DNA from: an uncultured beta proteobacterium
Lineage (GTDB): Bacteria; Pseudomonadota; Gammaproteobacteria; Burkholderiales; Burkholderiaceae
Reading direction: 5' to 3'
Assembly: GCA_903938955.1 (NCBI GenBank)
Contig: CAJAFJ010000326.1
Span: 1 to 5,299, forward strand
Length of the DNA: 5,299 bases
Shown: piece by piece, positions 1-5,299 of the stretch
Position numbering within the stretch: position 1 is the first letter of the stretch
Layout of the letters: every line of letters starts with the position of its first letter
Translations under genes and position numbers: made by a program
Notes under the pieces: generated by a model
Told to the model about the DNA's origin: nothing
Databases searched by the model: none
Seen by the model: only the letters and a program-made list of their open reading frames with translations

Positions 1-63
1 CCCAAACCTAAAAGGATTCCCAAAGCAAGCCCTGATGCAAGTACGGTAAAGGAGCCAACATGA
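1..63 (+). CDS. C-terminal tail of upstream gene (partial), probably type I secretion ABC permease/ATPase
   Basis: Frame 1 is open from the first base for 20 codons and stops with TGA at 61-63. It encodes a Pro/Lys/Ala/Ser/Thr-rich, probably disordered tail that begins PKPKRIPKAS and ends VKEPT. The stop overlaps the next gene's ATG as ATGA (60-63), a typical translational-coupling arrangement. In PrtDEF/AprDEF-like operons the gene before the HlyD-type adaptor is the ABC permease/ATPase, and low-complexity C-terminal tails are common there. That identity is inferred from position, because no Walker or signature motif lies inside the window. Frame 2 is also open to a TAA at 47-49, so the frame choice rests mainly on the overlap geometry. 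Only the tail is present, so nothing can be said about function from its own sequence. Confidence 0.55.
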   Translation, partial: PKPKRIPKASPDASTVKEPT

Positions 64-1415
64 GTCAGTTATTGACAAGTCCAAGCCTTGCCAGCGATGC
101 AGTTCTGTCAAAGGATGAGGCGCATGAGGTCAACACCGACACCCGCCGCCATGCCACGCTGGGCTGGGGTGTGATTGTGTTGGGCGTGGTCGGTTTTTTG
201 GGCTGGGCCTCGTTTGCGCCGCTGGACAAAGGGGTTCCCATGCCTGGCAACGTGGCGGTGGCATCCAACCGCAAGGCGGTCCAGCACCAGACCGGCGGGA
301 CAGTGGATGAGATCCTGGTTCAGGATGGCGACAGCGTCAAGGCCGGGCAGGTGTTGATCCGGATGAACAGCATGGCGGCCCGGTCGTCAGCAGAAATTGC
401 CCGTGTGCAGTGGTACACCGCGCAGGCGACCGAGGCGCGTTTGCTGGCCGAACATGGCGGCGCCAAACGCGTCAACTTCCCTCCTGAATTTGATGCGCTC
501 ATGGATGACCCAAGGGTGGCGAACAACATCCAGTTGCAAGCGCAATTGTTCAGTGCACGCCAGACCTCGCTGCGCAGTGAGTTGAGTGCCTTCGATGAAA
601 ACATCGCGGGTCTGAGGACGCAACTGGCGGGTCTGGAAGAGTCCATGATCAGCAAAAAACAACAGCAGGATTTTCTAAAGGAACAGCTGGAAGGCATGCG
701 TGATTTATCGCGGGACGGCTATGTGGCGCGCAACCGCCTGCTCGACCTTGAGCGCACCTATGCGCAGGTGAATGGCAGCATTTCAGAAGACATAGGAAAC
801 ATCGGCCGCGTGAAGCGGCAGATTGCTGAATACAGCTTGCGCAAGTCGCAACGCCAGCAGGATTATCAAAAAGAAGTGCGCACCCAGTTGTCTGAAGTGC
901 AGCGTGATGCCGAGACTTTGAAGAACCGTGTGGCGGCGCTGGACTTTGAGTTAAAAAACATCGCCGTCACGGCGCCAGTGGACGGCACGGTGGTCGGCTT
1001 GAGCGTGTTCACCCAAGGCGCCGTCGTGCCGAGTGGCTTCAAGCTGATGGAGCTTGTGCCGGGCGACGACCCGCTGATCGTGGAAGGCATGCTGCCGGTC
1101 AATTTGGTGGACAAGGTCCACCGCGGTCTCAAGGCGGAAATGATGTTTTCGGCCTTCAATTCAAACACCACGCCCCATATTCCGGGCATCGTGACGCAGG
1201 TCTCGGCCGACCGCTCGATTGATGAACGCACCGGCCAGCCCTATTACAAGGTCAAGGCGGCGGTGGCGCCCGAGGGGATGAAGATGATTGCTCATTTGCA
1301 GATTCGCCCCGGTATGCCGGTGGAACTGTTTATTAAAACGGGCGAGCGCACGATGATGAATTACCTGCTGAAGCCGGTATTTGACCGGGCCAAATCATCG
1401 TTGTCCGAGGAATGA
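60..1415 (+). CDS. HlyD/PrtE-family type I secretion periplasmic adaptor (membrane fusion protein)
   Basis: This 451-residue protein should bridge the inner-membrane ABC exporter and the TolC channel of a type I secretion system. It has a short cytoplasmic N-terminus (about 1-33) and one hydrophobic anchor (about 34-52, LGWGVIVLGVVGFLGWA). A first lipoyl-like half follows (about 72-105, GGTVDEILVQDGDSVKAGQVL). The long Gln/Glu/Arg/Leu-rich helical hairpin is predicted as coiled coil (about 155-295). The second lipoyl half lies at about 300-335 (VTAPVDGTVVGLSVFTQGAVV). The C-terminal beta region ends in the family-typical RPGMPVELFIKTGERT...YLLKP (416-439). Length and ending fit the PrtE/AprE branch. 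The ATG at 60 has a good Shine-Dalgarno, AAAGGAG (48-54), 5 bases upstream, and overlaps the previous stop. tolC follows immediately, so this is one operon. The family assignment is secure; the cargo is unknown. Confidence 0.93.
   Translation: MSQLLTSPSLASDAVLSKDEAHEVNTDTRRHATLGWGVIVLGVVGFLGWASFAPLDKGVPMPGNVAVASNRKAVQHQTGGTVDEILVQDGDSVKAGQVLIRMNSMAARSSAEIARVQWYTAQATEARLLAEHGGAKRVNFPPEFDALMDDPRVANNIQLQAQLFSARQTSLRSELSAFDENIAGLRTQLAGLEESMISKKQQQDFLKEQLEGMRDLSRDGYVARNRLLDLERTYAQVNGSISEDIGNIGRVKRQIAEYSLRKSQRQQDYQKEVRTQLSEVQRDAETLKNRVAALDFELKNIAVTAPVDGTVVGLSVFTQGAVVPSGFKLMELVPGDDPLIVEGMLPVNLVDKVHRGLKAEMMFSAFNSNTTPHIPGIVTQVSADRSIDERTGQPYYKVKAAVAPEGMKMIAHLQIRPGMPVELFIKTGERTMMNYLLKPVFDRAKSSLSEE
1407..1411 (+). 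promoter_or_regulatory. Ribosome binding site deciding the tolC-like start
   Basis: GAGGA sits at the very end of the adaptor gene. It directly abuts the ATG at 1412 (no spacer) but is 6 bases before the ATG at 1418, a normal spacing. This favours initiation at 1418, just after the adaptor stop (1413-1415), over the overlapping ATG at 1412. Confidence 0.6.
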
Positions 1416-1417
1416 GC

Positions 1418-2770
1418 ATGGCACATTTTTCTGGCTACCGGCGTGTGGCAAGCCTTGCCTGTGCGGTCTGCTTATGGCACGCCAACCCGGCCTCGGCGAT
1501 GGGTTTATTGCAAGCGTATGAAGCCGCCTTGCAAAACGACCCGCAGTACCAGTCGGCGGTGTCCGAGTACCAGGCCGGGCAGCAGTATGCCAAGCTCGGG
1601 CGGGCGAGTTTGCTGCCCACTGCGCAATATGTGTACAGCAACAGCCACAACCAAGCCGACTCAACCGCGCCTAATTTTTTCGGTCAGCCGGTGACCACCC
1701 ACCCTGACTACAAAAGTGTCACCAGCACAATCTCGGTGCGCCAACCCCTGTTTAATCTGGATGCCCTGGCCCGTTACCGGCAAGGCAAAGCACAGACCGC
1801 CTACAGTGGCGCCCAGTTCGCCAGCCGAAGCCAGGATGTAATGGTGCGGTTGATGGTGGCGTATGGCGATGCCAAATTTGCGGAAGAACAACTGCGGCTC
1901 TATACCGCTCAGCGCGACACGTTTGCAGAGCAGATGCAGGTCAACAACCGGATGTTTGAAAAAGGCGAAGGCACCAAAACCGATATGCTGGAAACGCAAG
2001 CCAAGCTGGATGTGTCTGACGCCCGGGTGATCGAAGCGACCGACAACCTGGTCACCGCCCGCGACACACTAGGAGCCATGCTCGGCCAACAGGTAACGCA
2101 GCTCGACGGACTGGCCAACGACTTCAGCGTCATGCCCTTGTCACCCGCCGGATTTGACGAATGGAAGTCCAACGCCAGCAGCCAGAATGCCGAAATAGCC
2201 GCCGCCCGCTTTGAACTGGAGGCCGCCGAACAAGAGGTCAACAAAAGCCGGGCCGGTCATATGCCACGACTGAATTTGAACGCCAGTTACAGCCGCTCCA
2301 AATCCGATAGCCTGATCAACCTGGACCGCGAGGCCACCGTGCGCAGCATCGGCGTCCAGTTGGTGGTGCCCCTGTATGCGGGCGGCTATGTGGATGCGCT
2401 GACCAGCCAGGCCCTGGCCCGTCGAGACAAGGCCCAGGCCGATCTGGACGCCGCGACCAACAAGGTCATGATTGAGCTGCACCGGCAATACAGCGCTGTG
2501 CAAAACAGCCTGGCCAAGATCAATGCCCTGCAAAAATCGGTGAGCTCCGCCACCTTGCTGGTTCAGGCCACGCAGCAAAGCGTCAAGGGTGGCCAGCGCA
2601 TCAATCTCGATGTGCTCAATGCGCAACAGCAACGGGTGGCGGCCGAACTGGAACTGACGAAAGCCCGCTACGGCTACCTGATCGGGCTGCTGAAATTACG
2701 CATGGCCGCAGGCACCTTGAATCCCGATGACTTGCGGGCAGTGGCGGCGCAATTTTCTGCCGCCGATTGA
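1418..2770 (+). CDS. TolC-family outer membrane channel protein of type I secretion
   Basis: A 450-residue outer membrane efflux protein (OEP/TolC) that should form the trimeric outer-membrane and periplasmic tunnel docking onto the preceding adaptor. Counting from the ATG at 1418, residues 1-27 are a signal peptide: RR at 8-9, a hydrophobic core, and an ASA cleavage motif before MGLLQAYEAAL. Two tandem OEP repeats follow. The first (about 28-225) contains the helix GEGTKTDMLETQAKLDVS (183-200). The second (about 250-430) contains its counterpart GGQRINLDVLNAQQQ (391-405) and ends GYLIGLLKLRMAAGTL, a pattern typical of the type I secretion TolC group. The beta-strand signature LVVPLYAGGYVD (about 315-326) is also present. 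An ATG at 1412 in the same frame would add two residues and overlap the upstream stop, but its ribosome-binding spacing is poor. The gene ends 5 bases from a convergent gene. Confidence 0.93.
   Translation: MAHFSGYRRVASLACAVCLWHANPASAMGLLQAYEAALQNDPQYQSAVSEYQAGQQYAKLGRASLLPTAQYVYSNSHNQADSTAPNFFGQPVTTHPDYKSVTSTISVRQPLFNLDALARYRQGKAQTAYSGAQFASRSQDVMVRLMVAYGDAKFAEEQLRLYTAQRDTFAEQMQVNNRMFEKGEGTKTDMLETQAKLDVSDARVIEATDNLVTARDTLGAMLGQQVTQLDGLANDFSVMPLSPAGFDEWKSNASSQNAEIAAARFELEAAEQEVNKSRAGHMPRLNLNASYSRSKSDSLINLDREATVRSIGVQLVVPLYAGGYVDALTSQALARRDKAQADLDAATNKVMIELHRQYSAVQNSLAKINALQKSVSSATLLVQATQQSVKGGQRINLDVLNAQQQRVAAELELTKARYGYLIGLLKLRMAAGTLNPDDLRAVAAQFSAAD
2743..2764. terminator. Weak hairpin at the convergent 3' ends (possible terminator)
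   Basis: GGCGGC (2743-2748) and GCCGCC (2759-2764) form a perfect 6-bp GC stem with a 10-base loop. It overlaps the last codons of the tolC-like gene and lies 11 bases past the stop of the converging regulator gene. There is no T-run after it on either strand, so it is not a canonical intrinsic terminator. It may simply reflect Ala-rich coding sequence. Confidence 0.25.
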
Positions 2771-2775
2771 TGCTG

Positions 2776-3450
2776 TCACACACCGCCGTGTTTCATGGCA
2801 TAGACGACCAGGTCCGTCCGATTAATGAGGCCCAGTTTGCTGTAGATGCTGCTGAGATGGTTGTGTACGGTGTGCTCCGTAATACCCAGCTTCTCGGCAA
2901 TAGCGATGTACTTGTCCGAGGGATTGGCCACGATGTTGCGAATCAGCTCCCGTTCACGCGTTGTCAACTGGGCGAGCTTGACATACTCCGAATCACCATT
3001 CGCGCGAAAACGTCGGCGCGCCGCAAAATTTTCGAGGTCAACGGCCCGAACCTGATTCATCAGACCGCTGTCCAGATGAACCTTGAGAATGACTTGGGGA
3101 ATCGACTCGATCGGATCTTCAGCCCGGATGACACCCCGCGCACCGGCCCCAATGGCGCTGGCAATGGGAATGTCGGCATACAAGCCCTTCATCACCAATA
3201 CTTTCGCTTGCGCTTGGCGCGTCAATGCAAAAATGACGGCCATCGGGTCCAGCGGATCGGCAAAAAAGCTGAACAAAACAACATCAGGACACAAGCGATT
3301 CGAGCAATCCAGGGCCTTTGAATAGCTGGTAGCTTGCCCGACCACCTTCAGCCGGGGCTTCTCGGCGTTGATTAATTTGGCAAGCCCCTCCAGGATGTCT
3401 GGGCGCGAATCAATCAGCATCACGCGTATTGGCTTCGTATCGTCCTGCAT
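2776..3450 (-). CDS. LuxR/NarL-type transcriptional regulator with degenerate receiver domain
   Basis: A 224-residue cytoplasmic DNA-binding regulator with response-regulator architecture. Residues about 8-122 have a receiver fold (beta1 IRVMLIDS, PDVVLFSFF, AKVLVMKG, GAGARGVIRAEDP), a linker spans about 123-158, and a LuxR/FixJ helix-turn-helix lies at about 160-222. The HTH keeps the family pattern: LTTRERELI, then IAEKLGITEHTVHNHLSSIYSKLG, then NRTDLVVYA. The receiver lacks the phosphorylation machinery. Aligned by eye, the acidic pair is D14-S15, the phosphoacceptor Asp is S61, the switch Thr/Ser is K88 and the invariant Lys is A110. It is therefore probably active without phosphorylation, or responds to a ligand or partner protein. 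No histidine kinase is adjacent. The ATG at 3450 has AGAGAG (3464-3459) 8 bases upstream. It converges on the secretion operon, which is a plausible but unproven target, as is its own promoter. Confidence 0.9.
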   Translation of the reverse strand: MQDDTKPIRVMLIDSRPDILEGLAKLINAEKPRLKVVGQATSYSKALDCSNRLCPDVVLFSFFADPLDPMAVIFALTRQAQAKVLVMKGLYADIPIASAIGAGARGVIRAEDPIESIPQVILKVHLDSGLMNQVRAVDLENFAARRRFRANGDSEYVKLAQLTTRERELIRNIVANPSDKYIAIAEKLGITEHTVHNHLSSIYSKLGLINRTDLVVYAMKHGGV

Positions 3451-3506
3451 TTTTTACGCTCTCTAGCTGATTCCTCAACTGTTGTAAAAAAAGACCCGAG
3501 TGAACT

Positions 3507-3530
3507 TGAAATTTCAGAGAATATTTCTGA
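3507..3530. promoter_or_regulatory. Overlapping palindromes upstream of the regulator gene (operator candidate)
   Basis: TGAAATTTCA (3507-3516) is a perfect 10-bp palindrome. It overlaps a second dyad, TCAGA-N7-TCTGA (3514-3530), whose AT-rich centre is itself nearly symmetric (AGAATATTTCT, 3518-3528). The cluster lies 57-80 bases upstream of the regulator start and covers the -10 of the candidate promoter. Dimeric LuxR-type proteins bind such dyads, so autoregulation is possible. This is inference only. Confidence 0.35.
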
Positions 3531-3539
3531 CCGGAACAA
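3511..3539 (-). promoter_or_regulatory. Candidate sigma70-type promoter for the regulator gene
   Basis: Reading the minus strand, TTGTTC (3539-3534) and TGAAAT (3516-3511) are separated by 17 bases. Each is a partial match to the -35 and -10 consensus. The surrounding stretch is AT-rich compared with the neighbouring genes, and the site would leave a leader of roughly 55 bases. Such matches are weak evidence alone. Confidence 0.3.
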
Positions 3540-3622
3540 TTCTCGTCCGCAGATGAGGTCCTGTTTTTGCGAAAAATCATGCGCTGCGATCGATCAGTCT
3601 GTCGTTTCGCCGTACCCCTGCA

Positions 3623-3671
3623 GCCGTCGCTTAGCAAGAAGCTACTTGCTACGCGACGGCAGTTCCTTTTT
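3623..3671 (+). terminator. Strong hairpin followed by T-rich tract, intrinsic-terminator-like in + orientation
   Basis: GCCGTCGCTTAGCAAG (3623-3638) pairs with CTTGCTACGCGACGGC (3645-3660). The stem has 16 positions with one mismatch (3631/3652) and a 6-base loop. On the plus strand it is followed by AGTTCCTTTTT (3661-3671), a T-rich tract suited to intrinsic termination. On the minus strand the structure begins 14 bases after the stop of the protease gene, but what follows (TGCAGGGGTACGG) has no T-run. It may still protect or help end the protease mRNA. The tract orientation instead points to a plus-strand transcript, yet no plus-strand gene is recognised in 3451-3622. Structure is clearly seen; direction of use is uncertain. 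Confidence 0.6.
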
Positions 3672-3673
3672 GC

Positions 3674-5212
3674 TTACGGCTTGGCGATAACGATCTGGCT
3701 CACCGAGTTCTGGCTGGCATCGTAGGTCATCAGCGTGCCGGCGACACCGGTCCCGGTCAGGGTGGTGGATGACGCCGAGTTGGCCTTGATTGACCTACTG
3801 GTCAATGTGCAATTGCCCGCGCTGCCCGTGACACAGCTGGCCGTGCCGCCCACGGAGAAACTGCCCGTTACGGTGGCATTTTTCACCACCGCACCACTGT
3901 TGATGTCACGAATGGTCACCAGGCCGGCCGCTTTCCAGTTGCCACCGGTCTTGGTCGCGCTGCCCGCCATGGACTTGAACGCAACCGTGACCGTTGTTGG
4001 CGGTGGTGCGACAGCTCCGCCGCTTCCGAGGGAGTTGACCAGCAGGTTCGGCGAGCCAGTGCCCGTCGCGTACAGACGGTTGGCCGTGGCCGTGGACGTC
4101 AACAGCGTCGCAATGGCCGCCGGCGTGGCGCTCGGATTGGCTTGCAGTGCAAGTGCGGCGACGCCGACCACATGGGGCGAGGCCATCGACGTGCCACTGA
4201 GGCTGTTGGTGGCGGTGGGGCTGGTGTTCCAGGCCGAGGTGATGCCGGCACCCGGCGCGAATATATCGACGCAAGTGCCCCAATTTGAGAATGACGCGCG
4301 ATAGTCGAGGCCGGCCATGGCCGCGACCGTGATCGCGCTCGGCTCCCTGGCCGGCGAGGCCGTGCAAGCGTCGGCGTTGTTGTTGCCCGCCGCCACCACC
4401 ATCACAACCCCCTTGGCCACGGCGCCAGCCACGGCGGCGTCCACCGACGCGCTGACTGCGCCGCCCAGCGACAGGTTGGCCACAGCAGGCCGTTGCGTGC
4501 TGTTGGCGACCCAGTCAATGCCCGCGATCACACCGCTCCAGCTGCCGGACCCGGCACAGTCCAGCACGCGTACCGGAATCAATGAAACCCCCTTGGCCAC
4601 GCCCCAGGTACTGCCGCCCACCGTACCGGCAACGTGTGTGCCGTGCCCATTGCAGTCGTTGGTGCCGTTGGCATCAGGCACCGTGCTGTAGCCCGGCCGC
4701 ACCCGACCCGCGAACTCGGCATGGTCGACCCGCAGGCCGGTGTCGATGATGAAGGCATTCACCCCCGAACCGCTGGCGTTGAACTGGTATTGGCTGTTGA
4801 GCGGCAAGTCGGCCTGGTCGATTCGGTCCAGCCCCCAGGTGGCCGAGGTTTGCGGCGACGTTGTCTGCTTGAGCGAGACCGTCTGATCCTGCTCTACATA
4901 CGCCACGTTCGGGTTGCTTCTGATGCCCTGCAGCGCCGCCTCAGGCAGGCTGGCAGAAAAGCCCCGAAGGGCCTGACTGTAAGTGTGGTGAATCTGCCCA
5001 CCTCGCCCTTGCATCAGGCTGGCGGCCTCGGCGGCAGGATTAACCACGCGGGGCTTGAACACCACGATATAGCGTCCAGGAATCGGTTGGGATTTAGCAA
5101 AAGGATGGGAGGTTGGGGAGGTGACCGCTTGTGCCTGAGCGAGTGGCGAGAACACAATTACGGCCGCTTGAACGGCGCCCGCAGCAAGGCGAGCAATGGA
5201 AGATAACTTCAT
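3674..5212 (-). CDS. Secreted subtilisin-like serine protease (S8A, proteinase K/aqualysin type) with C-terminal beta-sandwich-like domain
   Basis: A 512-residue prepro-protease that hydrolyses peptide bonds outside the cytoplasm. Residues 1-27/29 are a Sec signal peptide (MKLSS..., AQA cleavage motifs). Residues about 46-115 are an inhibitor-I9 propeptide (GRYIVVFKP...VAYVEQDQTV). The catalytic domain starts near 119 (ATWGLDRIDQADLPL) and runs to about 399. The triad is D157 (IIDTG), H190 (NGHGTHVAGT) and S342 (SGTSMASPHVVG), with N277 as oxyanion residue (AAGNNN). Cysteines 187/219 and 283/314 have the spacing of the two aqualysin I disulfides. After a Pro linker (403-405), residues about 406-512 look like an Ig-type beta-sandwich with an extra Cys pair (460/468). 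There are no RTX repeats. The ATG at 5212 places the signal peptide at the N-terminus, but no clear ribosome binding site precedes it. An in-frame TTG at 5266 would add 18 residues and also lacks one. No promoter was recognised in 5213-5299. Enzyme class is certain; substrate is unknown. Confidence 0.94.
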   Translation of the reverse strand: MKLSSIARLAAGAVQAAVIVFSPLAQAQAVTSPTSHPFAKSQPIPGRYIVVFKPRVVNPAAEAASLMQGRGGQIHHTYSQALRGFSASLPEAALQGIRSNPNVAYVEQDQTVSLKQTTSPQTSATWGLDRIDQADLPLNSQYQFNASGSGVNAFIIDTGLRVDHAEFAGRVRPGYSTVPDANGTNDCNGHGTHVAGTVGGSTWGVAKGVSLIPVRVLDCAGSGSWSGVIAGIDWVANSTQRPAVANLSLGGAVSASVDAAVAGAVAKGVVMVVAAGNNNADACTASPAREPSAITVAAMAGLDYRASFSNWGTCVDIFAPGAGITSAWNTSPTATNSLSGTSMASPHVVGVAALALQANPSATPAAIATLLTSTATANRLYATGTGSPNLLVNSLGSGGAVAPPPTTVTVAFKSMAGSATKTGGNWKAAGLVTIRDINSGAVVKNATVTGSFSVGGTASCVTGSAGNCTLTSRSIKANSASSTTLTGTGVAGTLMTYDASQNSVSQIVIAKP

Positions 5213-5299
5213 TGAATAGGTTAGGTAACGAAAAGAAGAAGGCCAAAAAAGCCGGCGATTTAACAAAATTTGGCATTCCCATGGCTGACTGCAGGCGAG

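Follow-up and report, generated by a model that had tools for sequence, protein, structure and literature searches.

How does a response regulator act once its receiver domain has lost the residues of the phosphorylation pocket, and which genes does it then control? Pseudo-receivers make up about 6% of bacterial receivers, and a 2025 review describes their switching as a mystery (PMC12632262). The question is raised here by a regulator gene in the window, that is, the whole 5,299-nucleotide stretch of DNA that was analyzed (Table 1). The answer that we consider fairly likely is that the gene encodes a NarL-type regulator that works independently of a kinase, serves large proteins of DUF5801 type (which are probably type I secreted adhesins) as their dedicated regulator, and acts through a predicted operator.

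Table 1. Features of the window, with coordinates counted from its first nucleotide.
Feature	Position	Strand	Basis
NarL/FixJ-type regulator, pseudo-receiver + linker + GerE HTH (224 aa, ATG start)	2776..3450	-	ORF call, Pfam, alignments
Regulator residues D14 S15 R16 ... S61 ... K88 ... A110; EHTVHNHLS in recognition helix	2776..3450	-	alignment
Upstream region of regulator, adhesin inverted repeat absent	3451..3673	-	repeat search and matrix scan
Subtilase, S8 + I9 propeptide; ORF opens at 5266, likely Met (MKLSS) at 5212	3674..5212	-	Pfam
Type I secretion membrane-fusion protein (HlyD), TIGR01843	60..1415	+	profile match
TolC-type outer membrane protein, TIGR01844; converges on regulator, 5-bp gap	1412..2770	+	profile match
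3' end of a reading frame (20 codons and stop) in ABC transporter position	1..63	+	identity inferred from operon order

The regulator gene proposed by the first-pass annotation is real, but it is read on the minus strand (3450 to 2776), the plus-strand reading of the same interval being interrupted by stops; a simple sigma-70 scan of positions 3451 to 3673 reported 0 sites. The protein matches the Pfam GerE model (PF00196) at 45.9 bits (cut-off 23.5) and the Pfam receiver model at 17.5 bits only, below the cut-off of 30.2. We derived residue equivalence from HMMER alignments to VraR (5hev) and NarL (1a04), made with the single sequence and with a 62-row family profile that aligns over its full length with both NarL (E = 8e-23) and VraR (E = 4e-24). 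The two references agree in placing D14 at the first acidic residue, S15 at the second, S61 at the phosphoacceptor Asp position, K88 at the Ser/Thr switch and A110 at the conserved Lys, which confirms the earlier reading that four of the five canonical residues are replaced and that D14 is the sole survivor. D56, D65 and D68 had been named as possible alternative phosphoacceptors, and none of them aligns with that position.

A homologue search, suggested at the outset as a check on whether the substitutions are shared by a clade, returned 117 homologues and shows that they are. Among the 61 full-length clusters with at least 45% identity (a count that excludes the fragment P0084), neither an intact quintet nor a phosphoacceptor Asp occurs, and residue 15 is acidic in none; Ser occupies position 61 in 59 clusters, with Asn and Gly in one each; position 88 holds Lys in 58, the others having Arg (one) or Thr (two); and position 110 holds Ala in 52 and Lys in none. 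The switch Ser/Thr is thus missing in 59 of the 61 clusters, and the K-3 position is Val or Ile in most clade rows and Phe in 6 of the 61, which together make Y-T coupling, as described for receivers in PMC12632262, unlikely. Homologues with the canonical residues, which would have spoken against a maintained pseudo-receiver, are absent from the clade and appear at 37 to 45% identity, where 13 of 16 clusters have the intact quintet; of the other three, P0065 and P0069 fall within the pseudo-receiver clade and P0064 outside it. As far as alignments can tell, the receiver pocket is remodelled in a fixed manner, not eroded.

In a tree built without the five columns, the pseudo-receiver members form one clade of 47 rows (SH-aLRT 100) with intact sister clades beside it; this tree excludes P0084, P0086, P0089, 22 near-duplicate clusters and P0107-P0118, and includes only 22 genome loci. 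Parsimony gives 7 changes of state over all 103 tree rows, so further losses happened elsewhere in the tree. Across 876 pairs, dN/dS is 0.145 for the receiver, 0.316 for the linker and 0.069 for the HTH (L002, L049, L051 and pairs outside 0.2 < dS < 1.5 excluded), and the receiver is under purifying selection. On the evidence of alignment and tree, the loss of the pocket is old and maintained, and one ancestral loss explains the clade. A decaying response regulator is ruled out by the clade-wide conservation, the single-clade tree and the purifying selection, and the first-pass view of a maintained pseudo-receiver holds. In the recognition helix, H196 is present in 145 of 147 clade rows (drawn from two overlapping databases) versus R in 14 of 14 sister rows. 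A plasmid search gave 12 records, the best about 32% identical over most of the length. A separate NarL-type group (L126:13323-14483, L127:591-1763) has Asn in place of the phosphoacceptor, and Cys/Gln where the switch residue and the Lys would be, apparently an independent loss of phosphorylation residues; a secretion system of the type seen in the window is encoded about 3 kb away from its genes, and a glycosyltransferase and an epimerase lie in the interval.

Gene neighborhoods were compared in two sets of loci. A motif scan gave 53 loci, and its conservation counts are biased because the search motifs contained FSFF and EHTVHNHL; a genus sample of 298 Pseudomonas genomes, drawn free of those motifs, is the fairer set. 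A scan of genome contigs with the single window protein found nothing. The regulator gene is present in 23 of the 298 genomes, with D14 C15 R16 S61 K88 A110 in every one, and in all 23 an adhesin-type ORF related to the L009 or L042 protein (several cut by contig ends) converges on its 3' end, across a gap of about 0.4 kb or less except in L090 and L091 (1.2-1.7 kb). The C-terminus of the L009 adhesin occurs in 22 of the 298 genomes, 21 of which also have the regulator, and in the regulator-only genomes G656 and G666 an adhesin nearer the L042 type stands at the same place. The L009 protein has 1519 aa and DUF5801 as its sole Pfam match; DUF5801 is also matched in L086 and in G656 (35 bits, over the cut-off), the remaining partners being assigned by BLAST. 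In the motif-scan set the partner cluster is present in 48 of 53 loci, including L051, where it lies beside a partial regulator in a different arrangement. Three partnerless loci (L002, L007, L024) end 0.4-0.7 kb past the regulator gene, and L097, apparently a second reading of the L024 contig, contains the adhesin C-terminus; L016, with an intact regulator and neither adhesin nor repeat beside it, is a true exception. Other neighbors vary, from type I secretion genes (directly upstream of the regulator in 13 of the 23 genomes) to a kinase with a TPR regulator and glutamine synthetase (11/53) and unrelated genes. Because many loci within the two sets share a species, the counts cannot be treated as independent. 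The recurring unit is the regulator plus the adhesin, the latter being probably a type I secreted adhesin to judge from its size, DUF5801 and the neighboring secretion genes.

The strongest conserved block upstream of the adhesins is an inverted repeat, GAwACTCCCA-N7-TGGGAGTwTC. Of the 61 adhesin 5' ends that could be tested, 60 have it (37/37, 16/17 and 7/7, with 32 ends not testable); the only end without it belongs to one half of a gene that appears to be split into two ORFs in L107. High-scoring sites number 64 in 1.79 Mb; 61 of them lie within 400 bp of an adhesin 5' end, two of the remaining three are in L124 and one is beside an adhesin fragment in L157. Sites from the first two sets had served to train this scoring matrix, and only the 7/7 set is independent of that training. 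A matrix from L001-L053 alone scores 46.7 to 60.1 in L157-L160 (partly seen in training) and at most 7.0 in 23 other loci (420 kb). Across 26 genomes, the exact repeat occurs in 12 copies, 11 at adhesin 5' ends and 1 upstream of secretion genes in G001; these are spread over 9 of 13 regulator-positive genomes, with the exact copy missing in the other 4, and 0 of 13 negatives. With one mismatch allowed, it is found in 13/13 positives (in G553 only elsewhere in the genome) and 2/13 negatives (G411, G457). A reversed control pattern occurs 0-2 times per genome, in positives and negatives alike, and since the one-mismatch pattern is no commoner than this control in many genomes, the evidence for the repeat lies in the exact and matrix matches. 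The repeat also precedes an adhesin copy more than 1 Mb away from the regulator in G508, and extra adhesin copies in G633 and G637.

The position of the repeat is regular. At 28-29 nt after it we find CATAGT in 42 of 80 oriented readings, TATAGT in 1 and neither in 37, these boxless readings being probably for the most part the palindrome read on both strands. From the repeat center to where this -10-like box begins is about 42 nt, which puts the center at roughly -54 relative to the presumed start. By eye, the adhesin promoters inspected have no obvious -35 hexamer, which fits an activator. A second palindrome, ATCGGCCGAT, lies directly 3' of the repeat in many adhesin promoters, including those of L124. 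Autoregulation through the repeat was considered and rejected, as no exact copy precedes the regulator gene in Pseudomonas. In L004-L053, most regulator genes are preceded by a conserved CCTAGACTC, and many secretion operons (ABC genes) by TCTAAGCTCC; both resemble sigma-S type -10 boxes.

We propose that the receiver would have been inherited from a canonical response regulator, its catalytic pocket lost once, and would be kept as a fold, probably for dimerization or for binding another input; the exchange of Lys from position 110 to position 88 may hold the domain in one state. A regulator dimer would bind the inverted repeat at adhesin promoters and, given the position of the repeat, most likely activate transcription. 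Output would then follow the amount of regulator, or some ligand or partner, rather than a sensor kinase. Since there is no phosphorylatable pocket, and since no kinase cluster recurs in more than 11 of the 53 loci on an unsystematic look, activity is probably set by supply. Control of large adhesins without a sensor kinase is probable because the pocket is lost and relatives adjoin genes for such probable adhesins, which nearly always bear one shared repeat. The window holds neither an adhesin gene nor the adhesin inverted repeat (best matrix score -12.4), so its regulon, and with it the same target family in the window's organism, is one that we infer from orthology.

That last step could be wrong, in that the regulator might control the neighboring secretion genes and subtilase in the window's lineage, with the adhesin regulon confined to Pseudomonas. 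We consider this unlikely, despite the window displaying those genes as the sole neighbors of a regulator that converges on TolC. Relatives of the window HlyD carry the name "protease secretion" in one source, and a 6661-b contig, perhaps the same one, is listed both for the regulator cluster P0003 (91%) and for the subtilase cluster P0303 (76%). Against this, HTH residues 192-200 of the window protein equal the majority sequence of the adhesin-linked proteins, and the repeat is absent between regulator and subtilase. Among the matches listed, the nearest named relative of the window HlyD is from Undibacterium (75%), and those of the subtilase are from Polaromonas, Caenimonas and Ramlibacter (73-75%), which makes a burkholderialean host probable. 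Orthology of the window secretion genes with those next to the Pseudomonas regulators, which are of a different type, found no support: in the 9 genomes searched that have a regulator-adjacent HlyD, the window HlyD is 34-36% identical to it, and in 8 of 9 a 39-53% match lies elsewhere, the adjacent copy being the best match in G637. Directly past the subtilase stop, a long hairpin at 3631-3669 (GCCGTCGC...TAGCAAG / CTTGCTA...GCGACGGC) is perhaps a subtilase terminator or a repeat element.

The same alternative is further opposed by G001 (Comamonadaceae bacterium 2FH), the only genome with an orthologue of more than 50% identity among samples of 399 Comamonadaceae and 399 Burkholderiales genomes, both of which include it. 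On its contig C36 (L124), which also carries secretion genes, there are two adhesin-like genes, of which one has DUF5801 and the other matches no Pfam model. The repeat stands about 95 nt upstream of both genes and is found in two further copies; the four score 49.8, 38.1, 36.9 and 25.7 with the matrix trained on L001-L053 alone. The promoter layout is similar to that of Pseudomonas, with CTAGAT/CTAGACT-like boxes, and the site at 11826 has matching changes in both arms that keep the symmetry. Over L124:1901-13938 two subtilases, which share 73-75% identity with that of the window, are encoded in alternation with the two adhesin-like genes. Matches to the window subtilase at E <= 1e-150 occur in 2 of 160 Comamonadaceae genomes (G001, 73%; G139, 60%), and the co-encoded subtilase may process the adhesin. 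Regulator and adhesin-like genes of G001 lie on different contigs, so the regulator would act in trans unless these join. Behind the contig's best repeat, divergent from the secretion operon, we also note a small ORF on the minus strand (L124:13939-14450, ~137 aa, MSNRPSKPG...).

Improbable to a similar degree is a VpsT-like mechanism, in which the pseudo-receiver would sense c-di-GMP or another small ligand that gates adhesin expression. Receivers prefer Pro at D+4 and Gly at D+8, and this region is often used by ligand-binding pseudo-receivers (PMC12632262); here both positions are changed and conserved, with Asp at D+4 (D65) in 61 of 61 full-length clusters and Pro at D+8 (P69) in 57. For c-di-GMP, the functional analogy with VpsT and large adhesins (PMC6890996) would point the same way. 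However, the W[FLM][TS]R motif, already reported missing from the window protein by the first-pass annotation, is also missing from 147 of 147 clade rows, and an unsystematic look recognized no other binding motif. The suggestion that LMNQ occupies the place of that motif in VpsT is plausible if a margin of a few residues is allowed, as the family profile aligns position 106 with VpsT 108.

Slightly less probable again is that the repeat is owned by another regulator and that the pseudo-receiver gene merely travels with the adhesin. In favor of this are G457, where an adhesin fragment and the repeat are retained (L157:7843-8828) with no regulator at E <= 1e-40, and the lack of an exact repeat before the regulator gene itself in Pseudomonas. 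Yet the repeat recurs in the sole sampled Burkholderiales genome with the regulator gene, and where that gene is broken (L049:10001-10699; the ORF diverges from its family around residue 185-190, ahead of the recognition helix), it has neither adhesin nor repeat next to it. In addition, the half-site TACTCCC differs from the NarL heptamer TACYYMT (PMC4886647) by no more than one base, which fits a NarL-type HTH. Finally, it is very unlikely that a modification, whether residual or of another kind (a different Asp, or Ser or Cys chemistry), still controls the regulator: some pseudo-receivers are covalently modified or redox controlled (PMC12632262) and C15 is found in 23 of 23 Pseudomonas genomes of the sample, but four of the five catalytic residues are replaced, and redox sensing by C15 is not general, residue 15 being Ser in the window protein and, among the 8 clusters closest to it, Ser in 7 and Ala in 1.

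The reading of a kinase-independent adhesin regulator can be extended, doubtfully, to a widespread form of adhesin control unlike Lap. In it, phosphorylation would play no part, the pocket Lys would have moved from strand 5 (110) to strand 4 (88) and locked the DNA-binding state, one operator would switch sets of DUF5801 adhesins across Gamma- and Betaproteobacteria, and the betaproteobacterial subtilase would process or release the adhesin. The narrower reading already gives one pseudo-receiver clade a predicted target family and a predicted operator whose place in the promoter is defined, with intact sister proteins for comparison. It also puts forward a candidate way in which transcription of large biofilm adhesins would be controlled; as the clade has culturable Pseudomonas members, the mechanism of a pseudo-receiver becomes directly testable. 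No earlier description of a regulator-adhesin system was found in the literature, judged by titles and abstract openings.

Among known systems, CsgD is an atypical-receiver LuxR-type matrix regulator. Its model (NCBIfam NF007505) matches residues 157-220 only, within the HTH, at 32.2 bits versus a cut-off of 250; on the features tested, this score and the missing W[FLM][TS]R rule out membership of CsgD or VpsT, so that the first-pass comparison with these two stands as analogy and falls as kinship. NarL and VraR share the full-length alignment and, with NarL, a heptamer-like half-site, but four of the five catalytic residues are gone here and the phosphoacceptor position is Ser. In NarL 7-2-7 sites the half-sites are 2 bp apart, compared with 9 bp here. 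VpsT of Vibrio cholerae is alike in its LuxR-type HTH behind an atypical receiver, matching in the HTH only with the single sequence and over positions 106-221 with the family profile; it regulates genes of biofilm formation and influences craA and frhA, both large adhesins (PMC6890996), and differs in its motif and in its partner. The Lap system of Pseudomonas (LapA adhesin, LapBCE and LapDG; PMC7716237) likewise puts a large type I secreted adhesin under dedicated control, whereas control here is predicted to be transcriptional, through a pseudo-receiver, and the partner is of DUF5801 type. The published definition of the pseudo-receiver or atypical response regulator class, which includes aspartate-less members (PMC12632262), probably fits the clade, which differs in having a target gene family and an operator predicted for it.
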